Assembly (NCBI RefSeq): GCF_024227715.1
Contig: NZ_CP100448.1
Coordinates: 1,116,001-1,180,000 of the forward strand
Direction: 5' to 3'
Length of the DNA: 64,000 nt
Origin: Halomarina litorea
GTDB taxonomy: Archaea; Halobacteriota; Halobacteria; Halobacteriales; Haloarculaceae
The position numbers and the translations under genes are program-made. Under the pieces are notes generated by a model that saw nothing but the letters and a program-made list of their open reading frames with translations, ran no database searches and was not told the DNA's origin. Shown here in pieces: positions 1,818 to 40,261 of the stretch. The number at the start of each line of letters is the position of its first letter. Position 1 is the stretch's first letter.

Positions 1818-2660
1818 ATGGCCGACCCCGACTCCGCCCCGTCCACGGACGACGAGCGGACGGTCCCCGACGGGTCGCGTCCGGACGACTCCTCCGAGAA
1901 CTTCGAGGACGACCTGTCGCTGGAGGAACTCCGCGCGCAGGTCGAGGAGAAGTACGACTTCGACAACTTCGGCCCGCGGGACATGGCGCAGATGACGGCC
2001 CGCGAGTGGGACGCCGTCTTCGACCCCGACTCGTGGATCACGGGTCCCGAACTGCTCGACCGGGTCGAGGCCGACGTGAAGACCCGCGTCGTCCAGCGAG
2101 ACGTGTTCGCCCGCGTCGAACGCTTCTCGGACCCCGACCGACTGGTCGCGTACTCCGACGAGGGGTACGCCGTCGTCTACGAGGACGGCACCGTCGAGGG
2201 GATGGGGACGGTCCTCCGGGACGTCAAGCCCTCGGTGGCGCTGGCCTCGATGGACGACTACGACGTGCCCGAGATGCCCGAGGGCGAGGTGCTGCCTCGA
2301 CCGCTGGAGGTGCCCGAGGGGACCGGCGAACTGGGCAATCAGGTGTTACAGGTCGTCGCGGGGGTGCAGGTGCTGATGGGCGTCGCGCTGGTGTTCTCGC
2401 CGCTCGTCGTGGACCTCGGGCGCTCGTGGGTGGTGGCGCTGGTCGCCGGACTGGGATTTCTCGTCATCGGCGGCCTCCTGTTCCTCGTCGTCGCCAACGC
2501 CAGACTCTCCGATAAGTTCCGGGCCGAGGAGTACCGCAACCGACTCCGCGCGGTCGGGCTGGACTCCGACGAGCGACCGGCCTTCTTAGACGACCTCGAA
2601 CGGGGGCGACTGCCGGGGCGCGACGGGGGCGAATCCGACCTCGACGAAGAGTCGGCCTGA
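1818..2660 (+). CDS. Membrane-anchored protein of the bc cluster (DUF7319-like)
   Basis: A 280-residue protein. The N-terminal 60 residues are highly acidic and disordered (many D, E, S, P). A folded region of about residues 60-170 follows, then two transmembrane helices at about 180-200 and 205-228 and a charged cytoplasmic tail. The segment EMPEGEVLPRPLEVPEG just before the helices is a proline-rich linker. From memory it matches DUF7319, a family seen beside haloarchaeal halocyanin and Rieske genes. It ends 70 bp before the halocyanin gene on the same strand, suggesting a role in assembly or stability of that respiratory complex. That role is inference only. Confidence 0.75.
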   Translation: MADPDSAPSTDDERTVPDGSRPDDSSENFEDDLSLEELRAQVEEKYDFDNFGPRDMAQMTAREWDAVFDPDSWITGPELLDRVEADVKTRVVQRDVFARVERFSDPDRLVAYSDEGYAVVYEDGTVEGMGTVLRDVKPSVALASMDDYDVPEMPEGEVLPRPLEVPEGTGELGNQVLQVVAGVQVLMGVALVFSPLVVDLGRSWVVALVAGLGFLVIGGLLFLVVANARLSDKFRAEEYRNRLRAVGLDSDERPAFLDDLERGRLPGRDGGESDLDEESA

Positions 2661-2729: not shown

Positions 2730-3410
2730 ATGAATAGACGGGAATTTCTCATGACCGCCGGCGGCACCGCCGGTGCCGTTGCCGCCTCGGGAGCGGCCAC
2801 CGCACAGGAGGGTAACAACTCCAGCGGCGGAAACGGTTCGGGCGGCGGCGGTGGTGGCGGGAGTAGCGGTCCCATCGACTACGGTGGGTGGTTCTCGGAC
2901 GTGCCCTACTGGGGCGGTCCCGGCAGCACGCAGGACATGACGGGCCAGTCGGAGGTGACCATCGAGGTCGGCGCGGACGCCAACGACGGCCTCTCCTTCG
3001 CCCCCGCTGCGGTCCAAATCGACGAGGGGGCGACGGTCATCTGGGAGTGGACAGGTGCGGGCGGCGCGCACAACGTCGAGGCCGAGTCCGGCGCGGACTT
3101 CGCCTCCGAGATCGTCGGCGAGGAGGGCCACACCTTCGAGTGGACCGCCAACACCACCGGCGTCGTGCCCTACTTCTGCAACCCTCACAAGGGCCAGGGG
3201 ATGAAGGGCGCGCTCGCCATCGGCAGCGACCTGCCACGACAGGCGGCGGGCGGTGCGGCGACGCCGGTCGACCCCGAGCACATGGGTGTCCCCATCCAGG
3301 CGCACTTCGTGGGTCTGGCGACGGTGCTGATGGTCGTCTCGTCGCTCATCTTCACCTTCTTCCTCCTGAAGTACGGTGAGAGTGCCCACACGAAGGGAGG
3401 GAACAACTGA
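2730..3410 (+). CDS. Halocyanin (blue copper) with C-terminal membrane anchor
   Basis: A 226-residue type-1 copper electron carrier. It starts with the twin-arginine signal MNRREFLMTAGG, followed by a Gly/Ser-rich linker (about residues 33-50) and a cupredoxin domain. Copper ligands are the His of GAHNVEA and the Cys, His and Met of PYFCNPHKGQGM. A transmembrane helix near the C-terminus (about 190-215) would hold the domain on the outer face of the membrane. It opens the bc cluster, overlaps the next start by one base, and probably accepts electrons from the Rieske protein. About 409 bp are identical to the halocyanin at 38998-39672. The start was chosen because of the Tat motif and TATA spacing. 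Confidence 0.93.
   Translation: MNRREFLMTAGGTAGAVAASGAATAQEGNNSSGGNGSGGGGGGGSSGPIDYGGWFSDVPYWGGPGSTQDMTGQSEVTIEVGADANDGLSFAPAAVQIDEGATVIWEWTGAGGAHNVEAESGADFASEIVGEEGHTFEWTANTTGVVPYFCNPHKGQGMKGALAIGSDLPRQAAGGAATPVDPEHMGVPIQAHFVGLATVLMVVSSLIFTFFLLKYGESAHTKGGNN
2827..3235. repeat. Inverted copy of halocyanin domain (partner 39143-39551)
   Basis: By direct reading, this 409-bp stretch is identical to the reverse complement of 39143-39551. It covers the Gly-rich linker and the entire copper domain, while the Tat signals and the C-terminal anchors outside it differ. Identity including third codon positions indicates recent gene conversion or very recent partial duplication. Confidence 0.9.
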
Positions 3411-3796
3411 TGAGTTCCGGAAACAACTCCTACGGCGATATCCACCGCTACGAACCGGCCCGCGAGAGCACGGCGGCGGCCATCGCCATCGTCCTGCTGA
3501 CGGTCGTCGAGATCGTGTTCGTCGGGATGTTCAGCTACGGCCTCGCCACCGGGTGGGGCTTCGACGAGTTCGGAAACATGTTCCTCGGCGGCCTGCTGGC
3601 CGTCATCTTCGTGGACCTCGCGTTCATCCTCCTGCTGTACCGCAAGGAGTTCTTGCCCGACGTGATGGTCGTCAAGAAGCGCCGTCGCAAGTGGGAGGAC
3701 CTCTACATCCGCGAGGAGGACATGTATGGTACCGACTCGACCGGTGACGCCTGGGAGAGCGTGAAACGTGCGGTCTACCCCTACTACAAGAAATAA
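3410..3796 (+). CDS. Two-helix membrane protein of the bc cluster (DUF7318-like)
   Basis: A 128-residue protein with two transmembrane helices (about residues 22-45 and 52-78) followed by a basic stretch VVKKRRRKWEDLY and a polar C-terminal tail of about 40 residues. It lies between halocyanin and Rieske genes and overlaps each by a single base (tgATG and taATG), so the three are translated from one mRNA. No cofactor-binding motif is apparent. From memory the family is DUF7318, restricted to haloarchaea. It is probably an accessory or structural subunit of the bc-type complex. The gene context is strong; the biochemical role is inference. Confidence 0.8.
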   Translation: MSSGNNSYGDIHRYEPARESTAAAIAIVLLTVVEIVFVGMFSYGLATGWGFDEFGNMFLGGLLAVIFVDLAFILLLYRKEFLPDVMVVKKRRRKWEDLYIREEDMYGTDSTGDAWESVKRAVYPYYKK

Positions 3797-4632
3797 TGGC
3801 TGACGAAGACAAGTATCCGAGCGAAACCGGCCGCCGGCGCTTCGTGAAGGGCGTCGTCGGCGCTGGCTCCCTCGCCGCGGTGGGGACCGGTGCCGCGGCC
3901 GCTATCAACACCGCCACGTCGCCGACCGGCGCGGGCGGTGGTATCACGACGTTCAAGGGAATCGCCAACACCGACGGCCCCGCCCCGCGCGGGATGCCCA
4001 TCGTCCCCGTCGAGATTCAGGACGACGGCACGATCAAGGGGGTCTGGCCGGAGGTGAAAGAAGTCGAGGAGGCTGGCCGGACGATCCAGATCGCCGAGAT
4101 GGAACTCGGTGGGGTGACCTACACCTCCGAGTGGTTCCAGTACTGTGGCGTCCAGACGTACGCCGGTATCCAGCCGAGCTACGAGTCCGACAACCTGTTC
4201 AAGTCCGCACCGAGTCCACCGTACGCCTGGCAAGAGGAGGTCTATGGTGAGGGAGACCCCATCAACATCCGTGACTTCCAGGACTACCGGACGTTCAGCA
4301 CGGGCATCGGCAAGGCCGGTCTCGGCAAGCCCGCCATGTGTACGTGGCGCTCCGAGGAGGGCGAGAACACCATCCCGGTGCAGGTTCTCCGCGCCCCGCA
4401 GGTCGAGCGACTGGCACAGGAAGACGAGTTCATGGCCGCCGCGACCGACCAGGGCGTGATGGCGTGGCTCGACAAGTGCACCCACTTCTGCTGTGTCCCC
4501 GCCTACAAGGCGTACGCGCAGTCCGCGAACTTCGGCGCGGCGAACAAGGTGTACTGCCAGTGCCACCAGTCGGTGTACGACCCGTTCGAGATCGTCGAGA
4601 AGTCGTTCGTCGCCCTGCCCCGTCCGGAATGA
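3796..4632 (+). CDS. Rieske iron-sulfur subunit of cytochrome bc complex
   Basis: A 278-residue Rieske protein that passes electrons from quinol to halocyanin. The N-terminus has a twin-arginine type signal (GRRRFVKGVVG followed by a hydrophobic helix at about 18-38) that serves as membrane anchor. The [2Fe-2S] ligands are C228 and H230 in CTHFCC, and C254 and H257 in CQCHQS. The first box has an extra cysteine (C232 next to C233) in place of the glycine seen in CTHLGC of bacterial proteins. The second disulfide-forming cysteines C233 and C256 are present. The protein is longer than bacterial homologues because of an insertion before the cluster domain. Confidence 0.93.
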   Translation: MADEDKYPSETGRRRFVKGVVGAGSLAAVGTGAAAAINTATSPTGAGGGITTFKGIANTDGPAPRGMPIVPVEIQDDGTIKGVWPEVKEVEEAGRTIQIAEMELGGVTYTSEWFQYCGVQTYAGIQPSYESDNLFKSAPSPPYAWQEEVYGEGDPINIRDFQDYRTFSTGIGKAGLGKPAMCTWRSEEGENTIPVQVLRAPQVERLAQEDEFMAAATDQGVMAWLDKCTHFCCVPAYKAYAQSANFGAANKVYCQCHQSVYDPFEIVEKSFVALPRPE

Positions 4633-4661: not shown

Positions 4662-5462
4662 ATGAGTCTGGAACGAAAGGACGAACACGACCACAAGGGC
4701 TGGATGAAGGGCCGCGAGCTCTCTCCCGTCGAGAAGGGCTACCTCACGGTGCTCATCTGGCTCGACCGGCGTCTGCGCATCGTCGATTACCTCGAGATTC
4801 TCGAGAACCTCTACTACAAGGCGAACCTGCAGATGCCGAAGAGTCACACCGAACAGTACAACCTCGACAACAAGTTCTGGTACTGGTACCCCCTGTACGC
4901 GCTCGGGTCGTTCAGTACCATCGCCTACGTAGTAGCCGCCATCAGCGGTGCGTTGCTCGGCTTCTACTACTCGCCGTCGACGGCGGCGGCCGAGACTGGG
5001 ACCGTCGCGTACTCCTCTATCACGTTCATCATGACGGAGCTGAACTTCGGGTTCCTGCTCCGGTCGCTCCACCGGTGGAGCGCGCAGGTGATGGTCGCGG
5101 CCGTCTTCCTGCACATGCTGCGGGTCTACTTCACGGGCGCGTACAAGGAGCCGCGCGAACTCAACTGGATCATCGGCATCGTGCTCATCTCGCTGACGAT
5201 GGTCTTCGGGTACACCGGCTACCTGCTCCCGTGGGACCAGCTCGCCTTCTGGGCCGGCCAGATCGGCGTGGAGATGTCGCTGTCCATCCCGCTGGCCGGC
5301 GAGTGGGTCGCACAGCTCCTGTTCGGCGGGTTCACCCTGAGCCAGAGCACGCTCATGCGGATGTACATCCTGCACGTGTTCTTCCTGCCGTTCATCACGA
5401 CGGCGCTCATCGCCATCCACATCGGTATCGTCTGGATGCAGGGCATCGCCGAGCCCCACTGA
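4662..5462 (+). CDS. Cytochrome b, N-terminal (b6-like) subunit
   Basis: A 266-residue di-heme membrane subunit that oxidises quinol. Four heme-ligand histidines are visible: H137 and H151 in one helix, and H238 and H253 in another. The second pair is separated by 14 residues, the spacing of plastid b6 proteins, not the 13 of mitochondrial cytochrome b. GYTGYLLPWDQ after helix C is a conserved family motif. The C-terminal half of cytochrome b is encoded separately downstream, as in b6f complexes. A 29-bp gap separates it from the Rieske gene. The N-terminal 75 residues are polar and basic and should face the cytoplasm. Confidence 0.94.
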   Translation: MSLERKDEHDHKGWMKGRELSPVEKGYLTVLIWLDRRLRIVDYLEILENLYYKANLQMPKSHTEQYNLDNKFWYWYPLYALGSFSTIAYVVAAISGALLGFYYSPSTAAAETGTVAYSSITFIMTELNFGFLLRSLHRWSAQVMVAAVFLHMLRVYFTGAYKEPRELNWIIGIVLISLTMVFGYTGYLLPWDQLAFWAGQIGVEMSLSIPLAGEWVAQLLFGGFTLSQSTLMRMYILHVFFLPFITTALIAIHIGIVWMQGIAEPH

Positions 5463-5654: not shown

Positions 5655-6416
5655 ATGGCACCGAGCGACGACGAGGGTGAGGTCCGCGCCGACGGGACGG
5701 GTATCGTCGCGCCGGACGACGAGACCCCGACCTGGAGCGAGCGGAAGTCCCGCTCGCAGGGCCTCTCTCGACTCACCTACGAGTACTTCGAACGCGCCCG
5801 TCGGGAGGACCAGGACCTCCGCACGGAGTCGAGCTACGTCGAACGCGACGTGCTCGGGTTCCCGACGTGGCCCCACGAGATGATTCGCAACCTCGCGATT
5901 ACCAGCTTCTTCGTCGGGATGATCATCTTCCTGGCGGCGACGCTCCCGCCGCACATCGGCCCGCCGGCGAACCCGAGTCAGACGCCGGCGGTCATCCTGC
6001 CGGACTGGTATCTGTACTGGTCGTTCGGCCTGCTAAAGCTGGGGCCGCTGAACCCCGACCTCACCATCCTCGGCGGGCAGAAGCTGATGGCCGACCGGAC
6101 GTACGGCGTGCTGGCGAACCTGGTCGTCGTCGGGTTCATCGCCATCGTGCCGTTCCTCAACAAGGGGAGCGCCCGTCGACCCGTCGAGCAGCCGTTCTGG
6201 GCGGCGGTCGGCGTCTTCGGCGTCGTGTTCTCCATCACCGTCGCGATGCTGTCGGTGAAGAACCTCCTGCCGATGGACCCGAACCTGCTGTTCGACCTGA
6301 CGTTCCTCCTGCCGTTCGTGGCGGGGTTCATCGCCTACGGGGCGCTGAAGACGATGCGCGAGGGCTACATGTTCGAACTCAACCGCCGGTACTACCGCCT
6401 CCGTCCCCCGAAGTAG
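5655..6416 (+). CDS. Cytochrome b, C-terminal (subunit IV-like) subunit
   Basis: A 253-residue protein. After a hydrophilic N-terminus of about 75 residues come three or four transmembrane helices. The segment LPDWYLYWSFGLLK near residue 115 corresponds to the quinol-site PEWY loop of subunit IV; here it reads PDWY. That identifies it as the second half of a split cytochrome b. It is separated from the first half by 192 bp, which holds a possible internal promoter region near 5610-5640 but no gene. Together with the Rieske and halocyanin it forms the quinol:halocyanin oxidoreductase. Confidence 0.9.
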   Translation: MAPSDDEGEVRADGTGIVAPDDETPTWSERKSRSQGLSRLTYEYFERARREDQDLRTESSYVERDVLGFPTWPHEMIRNLAITSFFVGMIIFLAATLPPHIGPPANPSQTPAVILPDWYLYWSFGLLKLGPLNPDLTILGGQKLMADRTYGVLANLVVVGFIAIVPFLNKGSARRPVEQPFWAAVGVFGVVFSITVAMLSVKNLLPMDPNLLFDLTFLLPFVAGFIAYGALKTMREGYMFELNRRYYRLRPPK

Positions 6417-6464: not shown

Positions 6465-6803
6465 ATGGCAGACGCCGACGAGCCACGGCGCGGCGCAGAC
6501 GGTGACGTGGTCGTCCCGATGGAGCTGTACAAGGTCGTCACCGTCTTCTCGACGCTCATCGCCGTCTTCTGCGTCGTCTTCGGGTTCATCCTGCTCGACG
6601 CCGCCACGCTCGACGCGAGTCTCCTCCGGCGGGCGTTCACCGACCTGCTTGCCGCGGTGGGCCTGCGCGCTGACGAGGGGGCCCTGGAGATAGCGTTCGC
6701 GCTGGCCGGCATCCTCCTCATCGGTGCCGGTGCTGGCACCTACGTCCTCGGGACGCGGTTCCGCACCGAGGGAATGGGAAACCATAAAGACGACGCTGAC
6801 TAA
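6465..6803 (+). CDS. Two-helix membrane protein (DUF7315-like)
   Basis: A 112-residue protein with an acidic/basic N-terminal tail of about 20 residues, a first helix near residues 22-45 and a second near 72-93. It lies 48 bp after the subunit IV gene and 10 bp before the next gene on the same strand, so it belongs to the bc operon. From memory it corresponds to DUF7315. There are no cysteines, and no histidine pair that could bind heme. The role is unknown; the position suggests a small accessory subunit of the complex. Confidence 0.75.
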   Translation: MADADEPRRGADGDVVVPMELYKVVTVFSTLIAVFCVVFGFILLDAATLDASLLRRAFTDLLAAVGLRADEGALEIAFALAGILLIGAGAGTYVLGTRFRTEGMGNHKDDAD

Positions 6804-6813
6804 CGATTCGGCA

Positions 6814-7071
6814 ATGGCTGACGAATTCATGAAGGGGCTCGCCATCCTCATCGTCTGCGGGCTGGGATGGATGGTCCTCGCGGGTTGGTACAACACGCCG
6901 GGGTTCGAGGCGGCCCAGTTGACGGGCGCGACCTCCGGTGCCGGAACGCTCTACGACCAGGTCGCCTACGTCCTCCGGGACGGGTTCTTCTGGGCGGCCG
7001 TCCTCGGACCGGTGACGTTCTGGCTGGTCCTCCCGGCGATCAGCGAGTACCGCGGCCGCAACGCCAACTGA
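6814..7071 (+). CDS. Two-helix membrane protein (DUF7314-like)
   Basis: An 85-residue protein from the ATG at 6814; an upstream in-frame ATG at 6724 lies inside the previous gene and is not used here. The first helix spans about residues 4-22 and the second about 55-75, with the short basic end RGRNAN. It is the last gene of the bc operon, 10 bp after the preceding stop. From memory it matches DUF7314. The small size and two helices fit a single-purpose stabilising subunit, but nothing in the sequence shows a cofactor or catalytic site. Confidence 0.75.
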   Translation: MADEFMKGLAILIVCGLGWMVLAGWYNTPGFEAAQLTGATSGAGTLYDQVAYVLRDGFFWAAVLGPVTFWLVLPAISEYRGRNAN

Positions 7072-12953: not shown

Positions 12954-15305
12954 TCACCCGGCGGACCCATTCGCAGCCGCCCCGCCCGTCTCCAGTGCGG
13001 ACTGGTCCACCCGGTAGATAGTGACGCCGTCGAAGCGCTTCGCGACGGTGACGCCCGGCACGCGGTCGAAGGACACCTCGCCGTAGGCGGCGCGTTCGCG
13101 CGGCCCGACGTAGACGTAGTCCACGTCGTAGGCGGCGAGGTACTTCGCGGTGCGGCGCGGCGAGTCGCCGAATATCCAGTCGGCGTCCCTCGCGCGCTCC
13201 GTGTACGCCTCGCGCCCGCGGTAGCCGATCTCGTGGGCCCACCCGACGACGCTCTGGTGGCCGGTGAGCGTCGTCGGCGCGTTAGCCCACGTGTAGGGCT
13301 GCCTGCCGGGAGCCTCGGCGACGACGACCCGACCGGGTCGTTCGTCCAGCCACCGGATGGCGGCGGCCTCCTCCGTGCGGTAGGTGTCGACGAAGGCGAG
13401 GGCGTCGAGCGTCGGGTCGTCGGTCCGCGGGTACAGTTCCTGCGCGTCGGCGTCGTAGTGGCCCTCGGCGGTGAAGTGGTCGGCGGCCGCGAGCGCACCG
13501 TAGGCGGACGTCGAGACGACGAGCAGGACCACGCCGACCTGCACGAGGCCCACGTCGCCGAACGCCGCGCGGTCCGCGCTCCGGAAGGGGGTGAGGGTGG
13601 GGGCGGGCCGCCCGCGCGCGAGCATGGTTCCGAGGGCCGCGCCCGCGGCGGGCGCCCAGAGCGCCCACACCTGCGCGTAGGTCTTGAAGACGGTGTTCAT
13701 CCGCCCCGGCCCAGCCTCCTCGCGGATGTAGACGAGTTCGACCAGCAGGACGAGGCCCGTCGCGGCGAGCATCAGGACGGCGGCGAACCCCGGTCCGTCG
13801 GCGTCGGTGGCGGCCTCGCGCGGGGCGAGACGGAGCAGCGCCCACGCCCCGAGGGCGACGGGACCGGCGACGAGGAACGCGGCGAACCCGAGGAGCCACG
13901 CGAACGACCCGACGAACAGCATGCCGGCCACGCCGAGGCCGAGCGTCCGGGCGTCCACGGCGCGTCGACCCCACCCGAGCAGATACGGCAGGGTGACGAG
14001 CAGGAAGGTGCCGTGGACGACGAGCAGTCCCACGAGCGGGCTGTGGTCCTCGACGAGGGCGACGGCCCGACCGCTCGCCGTCCCCAGCCAGAAGGGAAGC
14101 GAGAGGAGGACGCCGCCGACGGCGAGGAGGGCGACGACGCCGAGTGCGCCGCCGGTCCACCGGAGTTCGCGGGCGAGCCACGAGTCGGGCCGGCGGGTCT
14201 CGTCGCCCCCGAGGCCGACCAGCGAGAGGGGGTCCGCGGGCGCGAAGGCGACTGCCAGCCACGCCACGCCGAAGACGGTGGGGAACGACCACGTGTTGAC
14301 GACGGCGACGAGCGCCGAGAGGGGGGCGAGGGACCCGAGCAGGAGCCACCGGCGGCCCACCTCTGCCTCGGGGGTGCGGTAGTAGCTGTACGCGAGGGTG
14401 GCCGCCAGCAGGAGGAACGGCGTGCTCATCATGTGGGCGTGCAGGTCGCCGTTGAGGTAGGCGAACAGCGGGAACTCGTTGATGGTCCCCGGGATGACGC
14501 GACTCGCGCCCCAGTAGGTGAACTCGCCGACGGGGTCGTAGCCGGCGGCCGTGAAGCCCTCGATGCCACCCACTCCAGCGGCCCAGTTCACCAGACCGTC
14601 GGGGAGGACGCCGCCGAGCAGTCTGAGGGGCGTCCAGAGGTTCGAGGCGAGGCCGACGAAGAACGCGCCGAGGGCGCCCGCCGTCGTCCGGTTCGCCCCC
14701 ATGTGCGCGCCGACGCTCCCCGCGAGGCCGTAGGCCGCGGTGACGAACATGCCGAAGAAGCCCGCCAGCGCGAGGTTGTACGCGAAGCGCGCCTCGGTGA
14801 ACGTGAGGCGCGCGAGCAGTGCCGCGAGCAGGTGGCCGCCGTAGTAGTACTGCACCGCCTCCCCGGCGAACCAGAAGTCCCCCGGGGGGACGCTCTCGGC
14901 CCGGAGGAGGCTCTTGAGGAGGCCGAAGTCGAGGAACTTCTCGCCCATCGTGGCGTGGACCGAGGGGTCGACGGCCCGGACCGCGACCATCGCGAGGAAG
15001 GCGAGCGTGAAGACGACGGCCGTCTCCGCCACGGCCTCCCACTCCACCCCCACCAGCGCGCCGCGACGGACCGCGAGGGCGAGCAGGGAGACGAGGACGA
15101 CGTTGCCCGCGAGGAGCGCGGGCCACCCGAAGGAGACGTGGCCGACGGCCCACGCGACGAACCCGACGATGGCGAGTGCGGCGGGGAGGGCTACGCCCGC
15201 ACCCCGGTCCGCGAGGCGGGGACAGAGGGCCGCGAGGAGGGGGACGCCGGCGACGAGAAGCGAGAGGTACGTCGCCAGCCACAGCGCGACGAGACCGTAT
15301 TCCAT
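12954..15305 (-). CDS. DUF2298 (YYY-motif) multi-pass membrane protein, copy 1
   Basis: A 783-residue integral membrane protein with about 16 hydrophobic helices. The family signature is a run of three tyrosines followed by GGH (near residue 155), after the conserved GEKFLDFGLLKSLLR. The C-terminal 120 residues form a soluble domain ending in VTIYRVDQ. Family members are thought to be GT-C-type glycosyltransferases by fold, but their reaction is not established. The start at 15303-15305 is favoured by a TATA box 23 bp upstream; an upstream in-frame extension lacks hydrophobic character. Divergent from a GT2 gene and paralogous to 17139-19847. Confidence 0.88.
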   Translation of the reverse strand: MEYGLVALWLATYLSLLVAGVPLLAALCPRLADRGAGVALPAALAIVGFVAWAVGHVSFGWPALLAGNVVLVSLLALAVRRGALVGVEWEAVAETAVVFTLAFLAMVAVRAVDPSVHATMGEKFLDFGLLKSLLRAESVPPGDFWFAGEAVQYYYGGHLLAALLARLTFTEARFAYNLALAGFFGMFVTAAYGLAGSVGAHMGANRTTAGALGAFFVGLASNLWTPLRLLGGVLPDGLVNWAAGVGGIEGFTAAGYDPVGEFTYWGASRVIPGTINEFPLFAYLNGDLHAHMMSTPFLLLAATLAYSYYRTPEAEVGRRWLLLGSLAPLSALVAVVNTWSFPTVFGVAWLAVAFAPADPLSLVGLGGDETRRPDSWLARELRWTGGALGVVALLAVGGVLLSLPFWLGTASGRAVALVEDHSPLVGLLVVHGTFLLVTLPYLLGWGRRAVDARTLGLGVAGMLFVGSFAWLLGFAAFLVAGPVALGAWALLRLAPREAATDADGPGFAAVLMLAATGLVLLVELVYIREEAGPGRMNTVFKTYAQVWALWAPAAGAALGTMLARGRPAPTLTPFRSADRAAFGDVGLVQVGVVLLVVSTSAYGALAAADHFTAEGHYDADAQELYPRTDDPTLDALAFVDTYRTEEAAAIRWLDERPGRVVVAEAPGRQPYTWANAPTTLTGHQSVVGWAHEIGYRGREAYTERARDADWIFGDSPRRTAKYLAAYDVDYVYVGPRERAAYGEVSFDRVPGVTVAKRFDGVTIYRVDQSALETGGAAANGSAG

Positions 15306-17138: not shown

Positions 17139-19847
17139 TCACCCCTCGCTCGCGTTCAGCGCCGTCCGGTTCACCTCGTAGATGGTCACACCCTCGTTCT
17201 CGAAGGCCGTCGAGATGCCGCTGTGGCCCTCGAACTCCCTGAGGTCGCGCCCGAAGCACTCGCGTTCCTTCGGGCCGACGTAGACGTACTCCACGTCGTA
17301 CTCGCGGAAGGTCTCCGTCGCGTCGGCCCACGAGCCGATGTAGACCGCGACGACGGCGTCCACGCGCTCGAAGTACGCCTCGTCGCCCCGGTAGCCGCGT
17401 TCGTGCTCCCACCCGGCGAGCGTGGGGACGCCGCTGAACGTCGAGGGGGCGTTCACCCACTGATAGATGCCGGTACAGCCGTACTCGGGGCTGCGGACCC
17501 CCGGCATCGTCATCATGTTGGGCGTGCCCTCGCGGGCGTTCAGCCACTCGATGGCCTCGGCCTCCCGGGGGTGCCAGTCGCGGACGAACCGCGTCGCGTC
17601 GAGGGTGGCGCGGACGTCGTCTCCGGTCCACGTCACCTCGCCGGAGGTGTCGTTGTAGCTCACGAACGGGCCGGCGAGTTGCCAGCCGCCGCCGAGGACG
17701 CCGAAGCCGCCCGCCGAGACGAGCAGGAGGGCGATACCCGCCCGGAGCGCCCACGCGCCGGAGGCACGCGAGAGGTAGCCGTCGCCGTCCGATGCGGTGC
17801 TGGCCGTCCGGTCTCGCAGGCCCCCGAGCGCCCGGGCGAGGAACCCCCCGGTCGCCACGCCCCAGAGGAGCCACACCTGCATCGACACCTTGTAGACCGT
17901 GTTCCAGCGGATGGCGTTGGGGTCGTGGGGCCACACCTTCGCGTAGGCGAACTCGACGGCGACGACGAGACCCGCGCCCGCAACGAGGAGGACGGGTTCG
18001 TACGGGGCGAGCGCGGTCCGCCCCCCGTCGGATTCTGTCGTACCGAGTGGGTGTCGGGCGGTGGGGTCGTCCGGGGCGTCGGACGCGCCCGCCCGCGCGA
18101 GCATCCACCCGCCGCCGAGCAGTGGACCGACGAGGCCCACCACGGCGAGGTCGGTCAGGCCCGCGACGACGACGCCCGCGAGGCCGACGAGGGCGGCGAC
18201 GACAGCGGCTGGCGTCCCGAGGCGACCCCTGACGCGTGCGAGGAGGACGCCGGCGAAGACCAGCAGGAACGCCCCGTAGACGAGGAAGAGGGGAACCATC
18301 GCGCTCCGGGGCGGGAGCCAGCCGATCCCCTGGCTCTCGGGGCGGTGGAAGAGGAGGAACGGCGACCCGACGAGGACGGCGAGGACGCCGAGTACCCCGG
18401 CGACGGGGACGGCCGCAAACGGCCGAGAGAGTTCGTCGAGCGTGCGGGACCCGCCGAAGCGCTCGCGGCCGGGCAGGAGCGTCACCGGGTGGGCGGGCGC
18501 GAGTGCGACCGTGAGCGCGGAGAGGCCGAGGGCGGTCGGGAGGCTCCAGAGGTTGACGAGGGCGAGGAGGCCGGCGAGGAGGCCCACGGTCGACAGGAGG
18601 AGCCAGCGCTGGCCGCGTTCGCGGGCGGGCGTCCGGAAGTAGGCGAGACAGCAGGCGGCGACCGTGAGCAGGAACGGCGTGCTCATCATGTGGGCGTGCA
18701 GGTCGCCGTTGACCCACTCCCAGAGGGGGAAGACGGTGATAGCGTCGGGAATCACGTAGCGGCCGTACCAGTAGTTGAACGTGAACGGGGTGGTCTGGCT
18801 CACGAGGACGGCGTCGAGGGGTGCGCGGATTCCGCCCAGGACGGCCTCGCCGACGGTCCGTCGAGTCTCGGGCGAGAGACCGAAGTCACGGATGGCGACG
18901 CCAAGGAGCATCCGGGCGGGCGTGGCGAGGGTGCCGGTGAACCCGACGAGGAAGGCGGCGAGGACGCCCGCCGTGCGTCGTCGCGAGGTCGTCGCGACCT
19001 CGTGGACCGCAGTCCACCCCGGAATCGGGACTCCCGCGAACCGCTCGCGCCACTCCAGCGCGCGGCGGACCCGTTCGACGCCGTTTCCCCCCTCGCCGGT
19101 CAGTTGTTCGCGGACCGTGAGGGGGACGAGGAGGACGAACGCGCCCGCCCGCACGACGAGTCCGGCGAGGAAGGCGGGGAGGGCGAGGAGCGTCCCGACG
19201 AACCCGGCGAGACCGCCGACGGCGTCGTGTTCCCGTCTGCGTGCGGACTCCCGCTGGGCGACGAGCGCTCCACCGAGGCCGTAGGCGGCACTCACGAGCG
19301 CGCCGAAGTAGCCCGCCAGCAGGAGGTTGTAGGCGTAGCTCGCGGGAGTGAACGTGAGGCGCGCGAGGGCGCTCCCGACGAGGTGGCCGCCGTAGTAGTA
19401 GCGAAGCGACTCGCCCGCGAACCAGAAGTCCTCGACGGGGAGGTGGTCGGCCCGGAGGAGGCTCCGCAGGAGGCCGAAGTCGAGGAACTTCTCCCCGCCC
19501 GCGGCGTGCGCGGCGGGGTCGAGAGCGCGCATGGCGACCATCACGGCGAAGGCGACGCCGAAGACGGCGAGCGTCTCACCCACCGCGCGGGCGTCGAACT
19601 CGTAGCCCCTGCGGGTCAGGGTGGCGGCGAGGGCGACGAGGAGGGCGACGCCGCCCCACGTCCCGGCGGCGAGCGAGAGGCGGCCGACCCAGAAGGCGAC
19701 GAGGCCGAGAACGGCGAGCGCCAGCGGGAGACCGAAGGCACTCCCGAGGCGGGGAAAGCGGGGGAAGAGCCGCGCGGCCAGCGGTTGGCCGAGGAGGGAG
19801 AGGGCGGCGAACGCGAGGAACCACAGGGCGGCGAGGTGGTACTCCAT
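17139..19847 (-). CDS. DUF2298 (YYY-motif) multi-pass membrane protein, copy 2
   Basis: A 902-residue paralogue of 12954-15305. Both begin MEY followed by a hydrophobic helix and share the GEKFLDFGLLRSLLR block, the tyrosine triplet with GGH, a FPLWEWVNGDLHAHMMSTPF block and a soluble C-terminal domain. This copy is about 120 residues longer, mainly through a hydrophobic, basic insertion around residues 195-300. A GT-C-type glycosyltransferase role is inferred from the fold class and from the GT2/GtrA neighbours; no reaction has been demonstrated as far as I know. The promoter 27 bp upstream is almost the same as that of copy 1, so the two are probably co-regulated. Confidence 0.88.
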   Translation of the reverse strand: MEYHLAALWFLAFAALSLLGQPLAARLFPRFPRLGSAFGLPLALAVLGLVAFWVGRLSLAAGTWGGVALLVALAATLTRRGYEFDARAVGETLAVFGVAFAVMVAMRALDPAAHAAGGEKFLDFGLLRSLLRADHLPVEDFWFAGESLRYYYGGHLVGSALARLTFTPASYAYNLLLAGYFGALVSAAYGLGGALVAQRESARRREHDAVGGLAGFVGTLLALPAFLAGLVVRAGAFVLLVPLTVREQLTGEGGNGVERVRRALEWRERFAGVPIPGWTAVHEVATTSRRRTAGVLAAFLVGFTGTLATPARMLLGVAIRDFGLSPETRRTVGEAVLGGIRAPLDAVLVSQTTPFTFNYWYGRYVIPDAITVFPLWEWVNGDLHAHMMSTPFLLTVAACCLAYFRTPARERGQRWLLLSTVGLLAGLLALVNLWSLPTALGLSALTVALAPAHPVTLLPGRERFGGSRTLDELSRPFAAVPVAGVLGVLAVLVGSPFLLFHRPESQGIGWLPPRSAMVPLFLVYGAFLLVFAGVLLARVRGRLGTPAAVVAALVGLAGVVVAGLTDLAVVGLVGPLLGGGWMLARAGASDAPDDPTARHPLGTTESDGGRTALAPYEPVLLVAGAGLVVAVEFAYAKVWPHDPNAIRWNTVYKVSMQVWLLWGVATGGFLARALGGLRDRTASTASDGDGYLSRASGAWALRAGIALLLVSAGGFGVLGGGWQLAGPFVSYNDTSGEVTWTGDDVRATLDATRFVRDWHPREAEAIEWLNAREGTPNMMTMPGVRSPEYGCTGIYQWVNAPSTFSGVPTLAGWEHERGYRGDEAYFERVDAVVAVYIGSWADATETFREYDVEYVYVGPKERECFGRDLREFEGHSGISTAFENEGVTIYEVNRTALNASEG

Positions 19848-21371: not shown

Positions 21372-21764
21372 CTAGCCGGCCCCCGTCCACACGAGGAGCA
21401 GTTCGGTCCGACCGTCGGGGCTGCGCCAGACCAGCCGGACCGTCTCGCCGGGCGAGACGGCGACACTCGCGCGGTCGCCGACCTCGACTCTCCCCTCGCC
21501 CCACGTCCCGAGGGAGGTGCCGTCGGCCCCGACGAAGTGGACTCGACCCCCGTCGAAGCCGTCGCCGTTGAGATGCGTGACCGAGAGCGTCCCGGTTCCC
21601 GCGTCGTACGACGTCCGCACGGCGACGTTCGGTCGCTCGGCGGTGTGGTCGAGGACGCCCACTGCCGGGACGGCGATGCTGGCGAACAGGAGCAGGACGA
21701 TACCGACGAGGAGCACCTCGCTCACTACGCGCGAGTCACCTCTCCTGTCGGTGCGGAGTCCCAT
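21372..21764 (-). CDS. Type IV pilin-like secreted protein
   Basis: A 130-residue protein starting [20 protein letters not shown]. The short basic leader, the RGDSRVVSE cleavage-like site and the following 20-residue hydrophobic helix (about 15-38) follow the plan of archaeal prepilins processed by PibD; in canonical members the site reads like RAVSPVIG. The mature part is a beta-rich domain with the pattern [17 protein letters not shown]. It differs from the pilin at 27843 in the Glu after the serine. A close relative is present as a pseudogene at 22518-22874. Subunit of a surface filament or a minor pilin is likely; the filament type is unknown. Confidence 0.65.
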
Positions 21765-21864: not shown

Positions 21865-22116
21865 TCACGCGAGGTGGAGGCGGAGCGCGAGCCACCGCGC
21901 GGCCGGGAGGACGAAGTCGCCCATGGAGGCGAAGTGGTCGAACCCCGCGAGGAGGAGGAAGTCGACGCCCGTCGCGACGGCCACGCCGAGGACCACCGCG
22001 CCGACGCGAACCGACCGTCTGCCGCCCAGCACGCCGACCCGCGTCGCGAGCGTCCACGCGGCGACGAGGCTCGCGACGACGAGGCCCGCCTCCGCGAACT
22101 CGGTGTCGGCCCCGAA
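21865..22116 (-). pseudogene. C-terminal fragment of a 25456-27333-type membrane protein
   Basis: The last 75-83 residues of this frame align with the C-terminus of the 625-residue membrane protein at 25456-27333. Both end in a near-identical HFASxGDFVLPAARWLALRL block, and the preceding helix reads ATGVDFLLLAGFD here and GTNFILLTSFN there. Upstream of about 22116 the similarity stops and the frame loses coding character. No promoter or start is apparent. It is therefore a remnant of a deleted paralogue left beside the pilin-like gene. An independent small membrane protein of 83 residues is possible but less likely. Confidence 0.7.
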
Positions 22117-22517: not shown

Positions 22518-22874
22518 CTACAAGCGGGGGCTCCAGACCGCGAGGAGGTGGGTCCGTCCGTCGGGGCCGCGCCAGACGACCCGGACCTCCTCGCCCGCCG
22601 GGACGCGAAGCGCGACCCGGTCGTCCACCTCGACTCGGTCCTCTCCCTACGTCCCGAGGGTGGCACCGTCCGCCCCGACGAAGTACACCGCCCCGCCGCC
22701 GAACGCCTCGCCGTTGATGTGCGTGACCGCCAGCGTGCCGGTCTCAGTATCGTAGGCGGTCCCGAGGGCGACCGTCGGCCGCTCGGTCGTGTGTTCCAGC
22801 GCGCCGATGGACGGGAGGGCGATGCCCGCGAAGAGGACGAGGACGGCACACGTGAGGAGGACCTCGTTCACCAC
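22518..22874 (-). pseudogene. Pilin-like pseudogene with in-frame amber codon
   Basis: A paralogue of 21372-21764. The frame SRVVNEVLLTCAVLV and later VYFVGADGATLGT matches the intact copy residue for residue in many places. At 22647-22649 a TAG codon replaces the TGG tryptophan that follows LGT in the intact copy. The same frame then continues GEDRVEVDDRVALRV to a natural stop at 22518-22520. The 5' end has also lost its ATG: only GTG codons are available. A one-base nonsense change plus start loss make it a pseudogene. Readthrough is very unlikely because haloarchaea do not decode UAG as pyrrolysine. Confidence 0.75.
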
Positions 22875-22883
22875 GCGCGAGTC

Positions 22884-25455: not shown

Positions 25456-27333
25456 CTACGCGACTAACAGTCGCAACGCGAGCCAGCGGGCAGCCGGAAG
25501 GACGAAATCCCCCGCCGAGGCGAAGTGGTTGAAGCTCGTCAGGAGGATGAAGTTCGTCCCGGCGCCAAGTGCGAGGCCGATGCAGACCGCGCCGGCGCGC
25601 TGGTACCTGGGGTTCGAGGACAGTGTGCCGAAGAGGGCACCGAGCGCCCACACGGCCACGACGGTACCCAGTGCGAGGCCGATGTACGCGTGGACCTGCA
25701 GGAGGTCGCCACCCGACGTCGACGAGTAATGGAGGTAGACGAACAGCAGCTGTGCGCCGATGAACACTCCCCCTGCGGTCGTCCAGCCGACAGTCCCGAA
25801 CTCGGTGTCGAGGACCTCGCGGACGACGCCCATCCTGACGACGCCGTAGACGCCCAGCGGGTACAACATCAGCAGGTAGCGGACGCCGATTTGCGCGTGC
25901 AGCGGGAGCACGCGGATGTAGACGAGGGTGAACAACAGCGCCGTGAGCACAATGAACACGTCGGCGACGACCAGCGGGTCGTGGCGGTCGGGGAGTGCTG
26001 TGGATTTGCGGAGGCGACGAACCGCGAGTGCAGGGAAGGCGACCAGCACGCCGAGCAGCGGCGTGGTCTCGAGGATAGAGAGTTCGACGGCCGGGGTGCC
26101 CTTGTCGATGAACGGGGCGGCCACATCCCCGCTCCGGAGGAACGTCCCGACGAGTCGGAGCGGTTCCTGGAGGATGACCGTGAGTCCCCCCGTGAAGTAC
26201 TCGACGAGGATGAGCAGTTTGCTGCTCGCGCCGCCGTCGCTTCCAGAGCGTGTGGCGCCCGTCTCGCCGGGCGTGACGGTATTCCCGTCGGAGGCCAGCG
26301 GTTCGCCGTTGTACGCCGGCCACAGGTTCGCCGGCGTGACCGGACTCCCGACGACGAGGTAGTTCGTCAGGAAGAACGGCACGAGCGAGAGGCCGAAGGC
26401 GACCGCCACGGTTGTGAGCGTCCGTACGTCGTTCGAGCGTGCGGTCGGCAGGTCAACGGCGAGCAGGGCGACGAACAGGACGAGGCCCTCCATCGCGTTG
26501 ATCCACGTCACGAACCCGACCCACACGTACGCGAGCGCGCGGAACCGCGCCGCGCTCCCCGAGCTATCGGTCTCGCGCGACCGGTACAGGCAGTACAGCG
26601 TCGCCAGCAGGAGTGCCGCCACGACCGCGTGGCGCTTGGGGATGTTCGCCCAGAAGCCGAAGCCCGTCGCCGTGACCGTCGCCACCCCGGCGAACACGCC
26701 TGCCCGCCGCGAGTGCATCCGCGCGAGCAAACGGTAGAGCAGGAGGGCGACGGCGGCCGAGGCGAGGGTGGTGCTCACCTCCAGGGCGAGCAGCGCGAAC
26801 CACTGCTCCGTGAGCGGGGTGGCGACGGCGAGGTTCGCCGCGAACGCGCCGAGTGCGAGGGCGCTCCCCGCGAGGGTCGCCTCGCGTTCGTGGTCGAACT
26901 CGCGGCCGAGGAGCACCGCCAGCGTGAGGACGAGGAGGCTCCAGAGGGCGGCGAACGCCACCCGCGGGTCGGCGACCGTCGCGACCCCCTCCAGCGTCCA
27001 GAGGAACGGGAGCGCGAGGAAGACGTGGCCGTAGTTCCGGCCGTAGAGCTTCCCGTCCACGAGGTGCATCCCCGGCGAGTTCGCCTGCGCGTACCGCACC
27101 TCGCCGACGTGGAGGTGGCCGTCCGCGACGCCGACGAGCGTGTTCGCTATCGTCCAGTTGTCGTTGATGACGAACCCCGTGCGCCAGAACACCGACCCGA
27201 AGATAACCGTCGCGAGGAAGACGCACAGGCCGAGTCGGTCGCCGAACAGCGCCCGGCGGAGGTGCGCCCTGAGGGCCTCGAACCGCTCGCGCGTGTCGCC
27301 CGTGGTGTGATCGAGGAGCGTCTCGGTGCTCAT
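25456..27333 (-). CDS. Large multi-pass membrane protein, GT-C glycosyltransferase-like
   Basis: A 625-residue protein with about 12 transmembrane helices. After helix 1 the extracytoplasmic loop has FVINDNWTIANTLVGVADG, which resembles the acidic first-loop motif of PMT/GT39-like GT-C enzymes, with N-D in place of D-E. The second loop has NSPGMHLVDGKLYGRNYGH. The C-terminus ends in a conserved FNHFASAGDFVLPAARW block that also survives in the fragment at 21865-22116. It overlaps the upstream gene by 4 bases (ATGA at 27330-27333). Glycosylation of the neighbouring pilin is an attractive role but is inference. Confidence 0.7.
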   Translation of the reverse strand: MSTETLLDHTTGDTRERFEALRAHLRRALFGDRLGLCVFLATVIFGSVFWRTGFVINDNWTIANTLVGVADGHLHVGEVRYAQANSPGMHLVDGKLYGRNYGHVFLALPFLWTLEGVATVADPRVAFAALWSLLVLTLAVLLGREFDHEREATLAGSALALGAFAANLAVATPLTEQWFALLALEVSTTLASAAVALLLYRLLARMHSRRAGVFAGVATVTATGFGFWANIPKRHAVVAALLLATLYCLYRSRETDSSGSAARFRALAYVWVGFVTWINAMEGLVLFVALLAVDLPTARSNDVRTLTTVAVAFGLSLVPFFLTNYLVVGSPVTPANLWPAYNGEPLASDGNTVTPGETGATRSGSDGGASSKLLILVEYFTGGLTVILQEPLRLVGTFLRSGDVAAPFIDKGTPAVELSILETTPLLGVLVAFPALAVRRLRKSTALPDRHDPLVVADVFIVLTALLFTLVYIRVLPLHAQIGVRYLLMLYPLGVYGVVRMGVVREVLDTEFGTVGWTTAGGVFIGAQLLFVYLHYSSTSGGDLLQVHAYIGLALGTVVAVWALGALFGTLSSNPRYQRAGAVCIGLALGAGTNFILLTSFNHFASAGDFVLPAARWLALRLLVA

Positions 27334-37613: not shown

Positions 37614-38543
37614 CTAGCGCCCCCGATGTGTCAGGGTGAGGGCGCTGGCACCGACGGTTCGAATCGCGTCGACGACGCCCGAGGGGAGGAGCGGCCCGAC
37701 GAACGCCCGGAACTCGTAGATGGGTCCCCCCTCCGAGTTGAGGCGGTAGAGGAGCGGCCCCTCCAGTTCGTCTATCTCGTGCATCTCGCGCTCGGTGAGC
37801 GCGAAGTCGAACACGTCGCGGTTCTCCCGGATGTAGCGCTCGGTGGCGCTCTTGGGGATGGTGACGACGCCCTCCTGCTGGACGAGCCAGCGAATCGCGA
37901 CCTGCGCGGCGGTCTTTCCGTACCGCGCGCCGATGCGGGTCAACACCTCGTCGTCGACGACGCGCCCCTGCGCCAGCGGACTGTACGCGGTCAGCAGGAC
38001 GTCGTTGGCCCGACAGAACGCGAGCATCTTCTCCTGGTCGAAGTACGGGTGGTACTCGACCTGGTTCGTGAAGATGGGCTCGTCCGAGAGCCGCATCGCC
38101 CGTTTGAGCTGTTCGATGGAGAAGTTGCTCACGCCGATGTGTCTGACCTTCCCCTCGTCGACGAGTTGGTTCAGGGCGTCCATCACTCCCGCCATGTCGC
38201 CCGTCGGGAACCACCAGTGGACCAACAGCAGATCGACGTAGTCGGTGTCGAGTCGCTCCAGACAGCCCTCTGCGGCGCGGAGGAACCCCTCGCGGGTCAG
38301 GTACTCCGGGTACCCCTTGACCTTGGTCGTGAGGAAGATGTCCTCGCGCGGGACGCCCGAGTCCCTGATGGCCCGCCCGACGGCGGCCTCGTTCTCGTAC
38401 GCCATCGCGGTGTCTATGTGACGATAGCCCGTCTCGAGAGCCGCCCGGGTGGCAGCCTCGCACTCCTCCGGGTCCATCTGGTAGGTACCGAACCCGACCG
38501 AAGGAACGTTCGATTCGCTGACAGATACGCACTCATCCCTCAT
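37614..38543 (-). CDS. Aldo/keto reductase
   Basis: A 309-residue NADPH-dependent reductase. The tetrad is visible: Asp and Tyr in HIDTAMAYENE (about 41-51), Lys in LTTKVKG (about 75) and His in LLLVHWW (about 108). IPKSATERYIREN near residue 225 is the family's cofactor phosphate-binding segment. The C-terminus has an unusual extension after the normal end (about residues 275-309) that is hydrophobic and includes a possible amphipathic helix. The start at 38541-38543 adds eight residues before the common SESNVPSVGFGTYQ. Physiological substrate unknown; it may be a 2,5-diketogluconate-reductase-like enzyme. Confidence 0.9.
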   Translation of the reverse strand: MRDECVSVSESNVPSVGFGTYQMDPEECEAATRAALETGYRHIDTAMAYENEAAVGRAIRDSGVPREDIFLTTKVKGYPEYLTREGFLRAAEGCLERLDTDYVDLLLVHWWFPTGDMAGVMDALNQLVDEGKVRHIGVSNFSIEQLKRAMRLSDEPIFTNQVEYHPYFDQEKMLAFCRANDVLLTAYSPLAQGRVVDDEVLTRIGARYGKTAAQVAIRWLVQQEGVVTIPKSATERYIRENRDVFDFALTEREMHEIDELEGPLLYRLNSEGGPIYEFRAFVGPLLPSGVVDAIRTVGASALTLTHRGR

Positions 38544-38997: not shown

Positions 38998-39672
38998 TTA
39001 CTCGTAGTCTCCGCCGTATTTCAGGAAGAAGTACGCGAGGCCGAGCGTCGAGACCATCGCGATCATCGTCGCGATGCCGAGGGTCTTCGCGCTGTCGGCG
39101 ACGACGGGTTCGGCCGAACCACCGCTGGCGGGTTCCATCGTGGGCAGGTCGCTGCCGATGGCGAGCGCGCCCTTCATCCCCTGGCCCTTGTGAGGGTTGC
39201 AGAAGTAGGGCACGACGCCGGTGGTGTTGGCGGTCCACTCGAAGGTGTGGCCCTCCTCGCCGACGATCTCGGAGGCGAAGTCCGCGCCGGACTCGGCCTC
39301 GACGTTGTGCGCGCCGCCCGCACCTGTCCACTCCCAGATGACCGTCGCCCCCTCGTCGATTTGGACCGCAGCGGGGGCGAAGGAGAGGCCGTCGTTGGCG
39401 TCCGCGCCGACCTCGATGGTCACCTCCGACTGGCCCGTCATGTCCTGCGTGCTGCCGGGACCGCCCCAGTAGGGCACGTCCGAGAACCACCCACCGTAGT
39501 CGATGGGACCGCTACTCCCGCCACCACCGCCGCCGCCCGAACCGTTTCCGCTCCCGTTTCCGCTCCCGTTGCCCTCCTGTGCGCTGGCGGTCGCACTCGC
39601 GCCGACGGCGGCGACGCCCGCCCCGCCCGCACGGAGGAAGCCACGGCGACTCAGGCCCGAATCTGTGTCCAT
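38998..39672 (-). CDS. Halocyanin, second copy
   Basis: A 224-residue membrane-anchored blue copper protein. The signal MDTDSGLSRRGFLRAGGAG has the Tat RRGFL motif; the linker is Gly/Ser/Asn-rich; the copper ligands are His of GAHNVEA and Cys, His and Met of FCNPHKGQGM; and a C-terminal helix anchors it (about 195-218). The linker and copper domain are identical at DNA level to those of the halocyanin in the bc operon over 409 bp, while signal, spacer after the domain and anchor differ. It is monocistronic, so it may deliver electrons to another oxidase or be a differently regulated version. Confidence 0.92.
   Translation of the reverse strand: MDTDSGLSRRGFLRAGGAGVAAVGASATASAQEGNGSGNGSGNGSGGGGGGGSSGPIDYGGWFSDVPYWGGPGSTQDMTGQSEVTIEVGADANDGLSFAPAAVQIDEGATVIWEWTGAGGAHNVEAESGADFASEIVGEEGHTFEWTANTTGVVPYFCNPHKGQGMKGALAIGSDLPTMEPASGGSAEPVVADSAKTLGIATMIAMVSTLGLAYFFLKYGGDYE
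39143..39551. repeat. Inverted copy of halocyanin domain (partner 2827-3235)
   Basis: Identical to the reverse complement of 2827-3235 over 409 bp by direct reading. The match stops sharply on both sides: it begins in the Gly-rich linker and ends at the codon after the domain's SDLP. A recombination event between the two would invert the roughly 36 kb between them. Confidence 0.9.
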
Positions 39673-39880: not shown

Positions 39881-40147
39881 TCAGATGGCGAGGTCGCCCT
39901 TCGCCTTCACGACCTCGATGGCCTCGGCCTCGACGTGGTCCGTCGGGAGGTGCATCGGGACGTACTCGCGCGTCTCGAAGGTCTCTCGCTCGTCGTCGGT
40001 CCCGATGGTACACCACAACTGGACGCGGTCCGGGCCGTGCCAGTCGCCCTGACGCTTGACCGAGAAACAGGTCACCTCCTCCTCGTCGTACTTGATGACG
40101 GCGTCCTTCCGGATGCCGGGGTCCCCGTTGATGATGAGGTTGCGCAT
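39881..40147 (-). CDS. Small conserved haloarchaeal protein (HAH_0734-like)
   Basis: An 88-residue protein from the ATG at 40145-40147. It begins [20 protein letters not shown] and contains [17 protein letters not shown], both patterns that I recall from the haloarchaeal family named HAH_0734. It is beta-rich and acidic, with one Cys after the central Trp. It is divergent from the L44e ribosomal gene, an arrangement that I believe is conserved. Function unknown. No transmembrane segment or metal motif is seen. The longer upstream frame crosses the L44e promoter and is not used. Confidence 0.8.
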
Positions 40148-40261
40148 GCGACACACTCGGACTGAAGGCCGGTTAAGCGCTTCGAGTTTTGGAGGCCCGT
40201 CGGGTCCCTCGCGCGCGACGTGCCAGTCTCCCGCACGGCGACGGCCTCCGAACCAAACCGG

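Follow-up and report, generated by a model that had tools for sequence, protein, structure and literature searches.

Two old halocyanin paralogues of haloarchaea whose copper domain is very probably homogenised by recurrent gene conversion

The paralogues mtrA-1 and mtrA-2 of Methanococcales and Methanomicrobiales have had their cofactor domain homogenised over a very long time, with a transmembrane part that is divergent (PMC4632066). A survey of prokaryotes describes 26 recurrently converting genes, including tuf, psbA/psbD, amo and eftA/B; the seven archaeal genes in its tables are all from methanogens, and halocyanin is absent from them (PMC6053082). In polyploid Haloferax volcanii, intermolecular gene conversion is efficient, also between divergent genes, and proceeds in kilobase tracts (PMC8223754, PMC11276520). 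Halocyanin is regarded as the probable one-electron carrier in haloarchaea, and the bc/b6f-like complex is absent from about a third of them (reviewed in PMC8305020). Halocyanins fused to CbaD (subunit IIa) are encoded upstream of subunit II of the ba3 oxidase in Halobacterium and Haloarcula (PMC3128077, PMC8305020). No paper on gene conversion of halocyanins was found in the open-licence literature. The pair of halocyanin genes described here joins the rare known class of recurrent concerted evolution, the main difference being that its loci are dispersed.

The window, by which we mean the whole stretch of 64,000 nucleotides that was analysed, carries two halocyanin genes of a Halomarina genome. 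The pet-linked halocyanin gene, hcy1 (2730..3410, + strand), is an open reading frame of 226 aa matching TIGR03102 and PF00127, and encodes a Tat-type signal (MNRREFL), a Gly/Asn/Ser linker, a plastocyanin-type copper domain and a C-terminal transmembrane tail ending in KYGESAHTKGGNN, which falls into the "pet" class of the tail tree. The second, hcy2 (38998..39672, - strand, 224 aa), encodes a Tat-type signal (SRRGFLRAGG), a linker, a copper domain and another C-terminal transmembrane tail, which ends in FFLKYGGDYE and belongs to the "h2" class. Each scores 119.2 bits against the TIGR03102 halocyanin model (cut-off 93.8), and the copper ligands His/Cys/His/Met are invariant in 202/202 aligned domains. 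Based on the curated cut-off and the ligands, both genes encode halocyanins, which are type I blue copper proteins, with copper binding and electron transfer predicted; among solved structures, plastocyanins and pseudoazurins come closest.

The hcy1 gene is the first of the pet cluster. Upstream lies a conserved neighbour without a family match (1818..2660, +), syntenic in Halomarina and in other families. Downstream, the gene for the small membrane protein DUF7318 (3410..3796, +; PF24002, E 1.8e-72), a marker of the pet locus, overlaps the hcy1 stop codon. It is followed by genes for a Rieske iron-sulfur protein (3796..4632, +), assigned by synteny and by TIGR01416, its best match, which is below cut-off (E 6e-8), and for the N-terminal, b6-like (4662..5462, +; PF00033) and C-terminal, subunit IV-like (5655..6416, +; PF00032) subunits of cytochrome b. 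Two further membrane proteins of the cluster are DUF7315 (6465..6803, +; PF23997) and DUF7314 (6754..7071, +; PF23996), the coordinates of the latter being those of the translation used, with a real start that is probably internal. The hcy2 gene is flanked by an aldo/keto reductase gene and, upstream, by an HAH_0734-family/DUF7098 gene that is conserved in Halomarina (39881..40165, -; NF045545 and synteny), and otherwise stands alone. The aldo/keto reductase gene (37614-38543, -) separates hcy2 from an SRPBCC gene in the window genome only; hcy2 and the SRPBCC gene are adjacent in the other Halomarina examined, and the reductase gene therefore looks recently inserted.

The original prediction held that the two genes share a perfectly identical inverted segment of 409 bp with different ends on both sides, and that the identity extends to silent sites, and all of this is borne out. 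A base-by-base comparison of positions 2827-3235 (+) with the reverse complement of 39143-39551 (the second copy, on the - strand) gives 0/409 mismatches. Each copy takes in the last part of the Gly-rich linker together with the entire copper domain, ending at ...IGSDLP in the first copy, and at both edges the identity falls straight to background. Over the 121 codons of the domain, the silent-site difference between hcy1 and hcy2 is pS = 0.012 (only the final codon differs, right at the block's edge), as compared to about 0.34-0.40 between the window domains and the nearest same-locus genes of other species. Likewise, the two domains are 99.7% identical to each other and 69-70% identical to the nearest same-locus gene elsewhere, whereas the C-terminal tails of the two proteins are 28% identical to each other and 67-79% identical to those of the same locus in other species. 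The 3.88-Mb genome holds two copies of the segment only, and the next-best halocyanin matches are 67-68% identical. Two-copper-domain halocyanins are encoded elsewhere in this genome (G000:C1:1353514-1354278 and G000:C1:1890104-1890907) and are not homogenised with the pair. The window has no other repeat of such quality, its next-best long repeats being 76-78% identical (direct repeats 14704-15026 / 19255-19577, 21396-21737 / 22542-22883 and 21886-22008 / 25477-25599); a direct pair of 46 bp (14410-14455 / 18667-18712) is 98% identical. These other direct repeats are probably tandem paralogues.

The pet-linked gene was compared with the h2 gene in a family-level set of 64 genomes from 16 genera, to which 37 genomes were added for an order-level set of 101 genomes, 8 family codes and 202 sequences. 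In the 64-genome comparison, a domain that is more similar to its paralogue than to its same-locus orthologue recurs in many genera, and further examples of high within-genome domain identity are 0.980 (G010), 0.983 (G034), 0.986 (G086), 0.963 (G009) and 0.975 (G130). The pS of recently converted pairs is 0.01-0.2, as compared to 0.3-0.5 for most orthologues. Long-lasting recurrent concerted evolution has been defined by paralogues that are nearer to each other than orthologues in at least five species, by a duplication older than the species, by similarity at silent sites and by persistence over hundreds of millions of years (PMC6053082). Here, in 59/101 genomes the domain resembles the paralogue within the genome more closely than the same-locus copy of any other genome (0/101 for the tail by the same test), the neighbours of both loci are conserved and the tail tree splits once by locus, and pS is 0.012 for the window pair and 0.03-0.2 for other recent pairs; the pattern extends over 8 family codes of the order. 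Families with such paralogue-nearest domains are f1, f4, f5, f6, f7, f14 and f15, and not f12; recent homogenisation was found in 0/5 genomes of f12, and in only part of genera g6, g10, g26 and g27.

Phylogenetic trees of the two parts of the protein disagree in the manner described for mtrA, in which the soluble domain is homogenised and the transmembrane part is locus-specific (PMC4632066). The tail tree of the 101 genomes consists of two perfect locus clades with 1 change of locus label, and the domain tree has 77, these tree counts giving no dated number of events and the higher figure being inflated by tree error. The two domains of one genome are sisters in 50/101 genomes, with an SH-aLRT of at least 95 in 41 of these 50, and the 41 well-supported pairs are a conservative lower bound on conversion. 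The family tail tree likewise has 1 locus change. On the family domain DNA tree, the 48 changes (43 once weak branches are collapsed) show no more clustering by locus than shuffled labels do (43.3 +/- 3.0), and compare to 56.5 +/- 2.2 with random swaps within genomes, the latter comparison indicating that a slight locus signal is left. In relatives, the domains thus cluster by genome, silent sites included, and the anchors cluster by locus. The view that recent conversion acted between old paralogues is upheld as to the conversion and the old, syntenic loci, but not as to a single recent event, as homogenisation is recurrent in most of the sampled families.

These patterns very probably reflect two old halocyanin paralogues that undergo recurrent, domain-limited gene conversion, a form of concerted evolution. 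As we reconstruct it from the sequences, hcy1 stood at the head of the pet operon and hcy2 was probably located just downstream of the same cluster, and the hcy2 of Halomarina would since have come to lie about 26-36 kb off, in inverted orientation. One gene would occasionally serve as the template for repair or overwriting of the other across the linker and copper domain. The tracts would find their limits at the locus-specific signal/linker and C-terminal anchor, either because the sequences are too different there or because selection removes the products. In the window species, such an event, or repeated ones, very probably happened just recently and left the 409 identical bases. The machinery is presumed to be homologous recombination in a polyploid cell, between loci that may lie on one chromosome copy or on two.

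Like mtrA-1 and mtrA-2, the halocyanins are archaeal paralogues of a membrane bioenergetic complex that have different transmembrane parts and in which only the cofactor domain is recurrently converted (PMC4632066). Whereas the mtrA copies share an operon, the halocyanin genes are dispersed, and those of the window are inverted and separated by 36 kb; the pair is also haloarchaeal, it involves a copper domain, and both the N- and C-terminal ends are spared. With the surveyed genes it shares within-genome paralogues that are more similar than orthologues, at silent sites too, and recurrently so; except for mtrA, the surveyed cases are presented as whole genes (PMC6053082), whereas a single domain is affected here. 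Like the CbaD fusions, the pair combines a halocyanin with a single C-terminal transmembrane helix and is tied to a respiratory complex. Unlike them, the pet and h2 tails are without the Pro-X-Gly-Thr motif and the Trp, and the window genes are not located beside an oxidase gene, their neighbours being pet genes or SRPBCC/CoaBC/HAH_0734; it is their gene context and co-occurrence that tie them to the bc/b6f-like complex. The idea that the h2 tail is itself the helix of oxidase subunit IIa was rejected, as the tail matches neither the published description (PMC3128077) nor any entry in the Pfam/NCBIfam tail scans.

The best-matching tract usually starts in the linker, at a median of 7 codons before the domain, and ends at a median of +1 codon after it. 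The tails were already different, and the end of the tract alone therefore cannot distinguish a stop of recombination from the weeding-out of converted tails. Elsewhere, hcy1 and hcy2 are from 5.6 kb to more than 2 Mb apart, or on separate contigs. The Spearman correlation between within-genome identity and gene distance is 0.07 (p = 0.53, n = 89 genomes), and median domain identity is 0.79 at less than 15 kb and 0.85 at more than 60 kb or on other contigs. Conversion is polarised from pet to h2 in G082, G038 and G188 and from h2 to pet in G020 and G076, the direction being polarisable in a few genomes only, with the comparisons of G084 left out for unknown bases in its h2 sequence. It appears that conversion is able to act between dispersed loci whatever the distance.

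Recurrent conversion is not universal, and two further observations speak against it. First, conversion as described in H. volcanii is the likely machinery for the halocyanin pair (PMC8223754, PMC11276520), but there it acts on allelic chromosome copies and yields kilobase-long tracts, whereas here different loci exchange a few hundred bases (about 300-450 bp), so that heterology or selection must be invoked. Second, a quite different plastocyanin-like domain is found at both loci in G031, in G072-G074, in G015 and G083, in G099 and G101, and in G156 (families f6, f7 and f12), and within genus g15 the domain type of G021 is not that of G212 at either locus. The domain type of such genomes is unlike that of relatives and thus seems to switch at both loci together, and divergent types of this sort (e.g. 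in G031 and G072-G074) would not readily spread by conversion of the ordinary, homology-driven kind. The loci of these joint cases are L238/L239 (G021) versus L222/L223 (G212), L097/L098 (G031) and L122-L124 (G072-G074).

The h2 tail is present in 106/106 genomes that have DUF7318 and the pet complex (65/65 in the family and 41/41 in others), and was found in 0/25 genomes without DUF7318. Pet-type cytochrome b, more than 80% identical in three control genomes, is absent from the same 25 genomes, and in 4 of these the sole cytochrome b is of another kind, at about 40% identity. The co-presence of hcy2 and the pet complex varies inside genus g10 and families f7 and f12 with 0 discordant genomes, implying several independent joint losses, the absences in f7 being less certain because the h2-tail model is short and weaker there (E about 1e-10 to 1e-14 where present). 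One Halomarina (G006) has a pet operon without its leading halocyanin and a tandem h2-pet pair on another contig beside sulfur/persulfide-type genes (L093 4038-4451, L073 4480-5955); in G004, an extra tandem h2-pet pair provides a third and fourth halocyanin beside the canonical pair (L063 4924-6456). The co-occurrence, together with these tandem pairs, indicates that the pair behaves as a unit. We infer that both halocyanins serve the same bc/b6f-like complex. The original prediction of two carriers kept alike in the domain and unlike in anchoring fits these data, and is strengthened by the perfect co-occurrence of hcy2 with pet.

The sharing of a quinol-oxidising complex and its partners, with one halocyanin beside cytochrome b and Rieske and the other on a different anchor, may account for the tolerance of, or preference for, an identical domain. 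At its fullest, this idea states that complex III of haloarchaea depends obligately on a pair of halocyanins whose shared copper domain co-evolves. One, encoded in the pet operon, would be subunit-like and would stand in for cytochrome f/c1; the other would be differently anchored. Through gene conversion, whatever alters the domain, up to its exchange for another plastocyanin-like type, would reach both proteins, and electron transfer between them would thereby be kept matched. We hold this to be tentative, at close to but short of an even chance. Somewhat further below even, but a serious alternative nonetheless, is a neutral account in which ectopic conversion is simply frequent between similar paralogues in polyploid haloarchaea, the tails are spared because changes there are harmful or the sequences too divergent, and nothing is gained from an identical copper domain as such. 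The very high efficiency of conversion in H. volcanii (PMC8223754), conversion in both directions and irrespective of distance, and the near-random distribution of locus labels on the domain tree all agree with it. The other halocyanins of the same genome, at 67-68% identity, are not homogenised with the pair, and the pair is kept together wherever the pet complex is kept; both observations count against the neutral account, but are compatible with it.

Both loci are old, and their neighbourhoods are conserved. In the Halomarina genomes G001, G003, G004, G005 and G007, hcy1 is flanked by the homologue of the 1818-2660 gene and DUF7318, and hcy2 by HAH_0734 and SRPBCC/CoaBC, the two genes having the inverted layout of the window at a spacing of 26-33 kb (36 kb in the window). 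Both loci are separate and syntenic across Halomarina and other genera. A compact cluster in five families reads g1818-hcy1-DUF7318-(Rieske)-cytb-cytbC-DUF7315-DUF7314-YuiD-NADK-hcy2; its two halocyanin genes point the same way, with about 6-15 kb between them, and Rieske was not detected in either of the two f4 loci that were inspected. The ancestral layout was probably of this compact type, in which case hcy2 was originally a pet-cluster gene in distal position. An inversion of about 36 kb by way of the repeats had also been proposed, but in the five relatives each gene joins the same outer flank to the same inner flank as in the window, with swapped flanks in 0/5; such an inversion is thus not seen, and is no more than a possibility.

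A recent duplication, in which a fresh gene copy was joined to another signal and anchor lineage by lineage, is also expected to give identical domains with different ends. Yet the neighbours of both loci are conserved in many genera, each tail is a single clade across the 101 genomes, and the same fusions would have to have arisen independently, dozens of times over, at these two sites, which makes this account very improbable. The 409-bp repeat is longer than short reads, and a collapsed repeat might have given false identity to two slightly different copies. Since the flanks are unique, the independent synteny of both loci is conserved in relatives, and the pattern recurs in many independent genomes, often with a few differences and also in genomes on one or few long contigs, near-identical pairs on long contigs being found in, e.g., G010, G033 and G034, an assembly artefact is just as hard to credit. 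Selection at the protein level alone, with domains kept alike by common partners and no exchange of DNA, agrees with the 202/202 invariant ligands and the low non-synonymous divergence but is the least credible account, given silent sites at which the paralogues hardly differ, if at all (pS 0.01-0.2 in recently converted pairs, as against 0.3-0.5 for most orthologues).

Concerted evolution is rarely confined to one domain and sustained across an order; among archaea, mtrA is the known case, and the halocyanins would be the second, in a different enzyme system. The tails provide a built-in natural control for conversion of the domain, and trees of halocyanin domains are unfit for assigning orthologues. 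For the organisms themselves, the pair offers a lead on which one-electron carriers serve the haloarchaeal bc/b6f-like complex, as hcy2 is found exactly where the complex is in the genomes tested.
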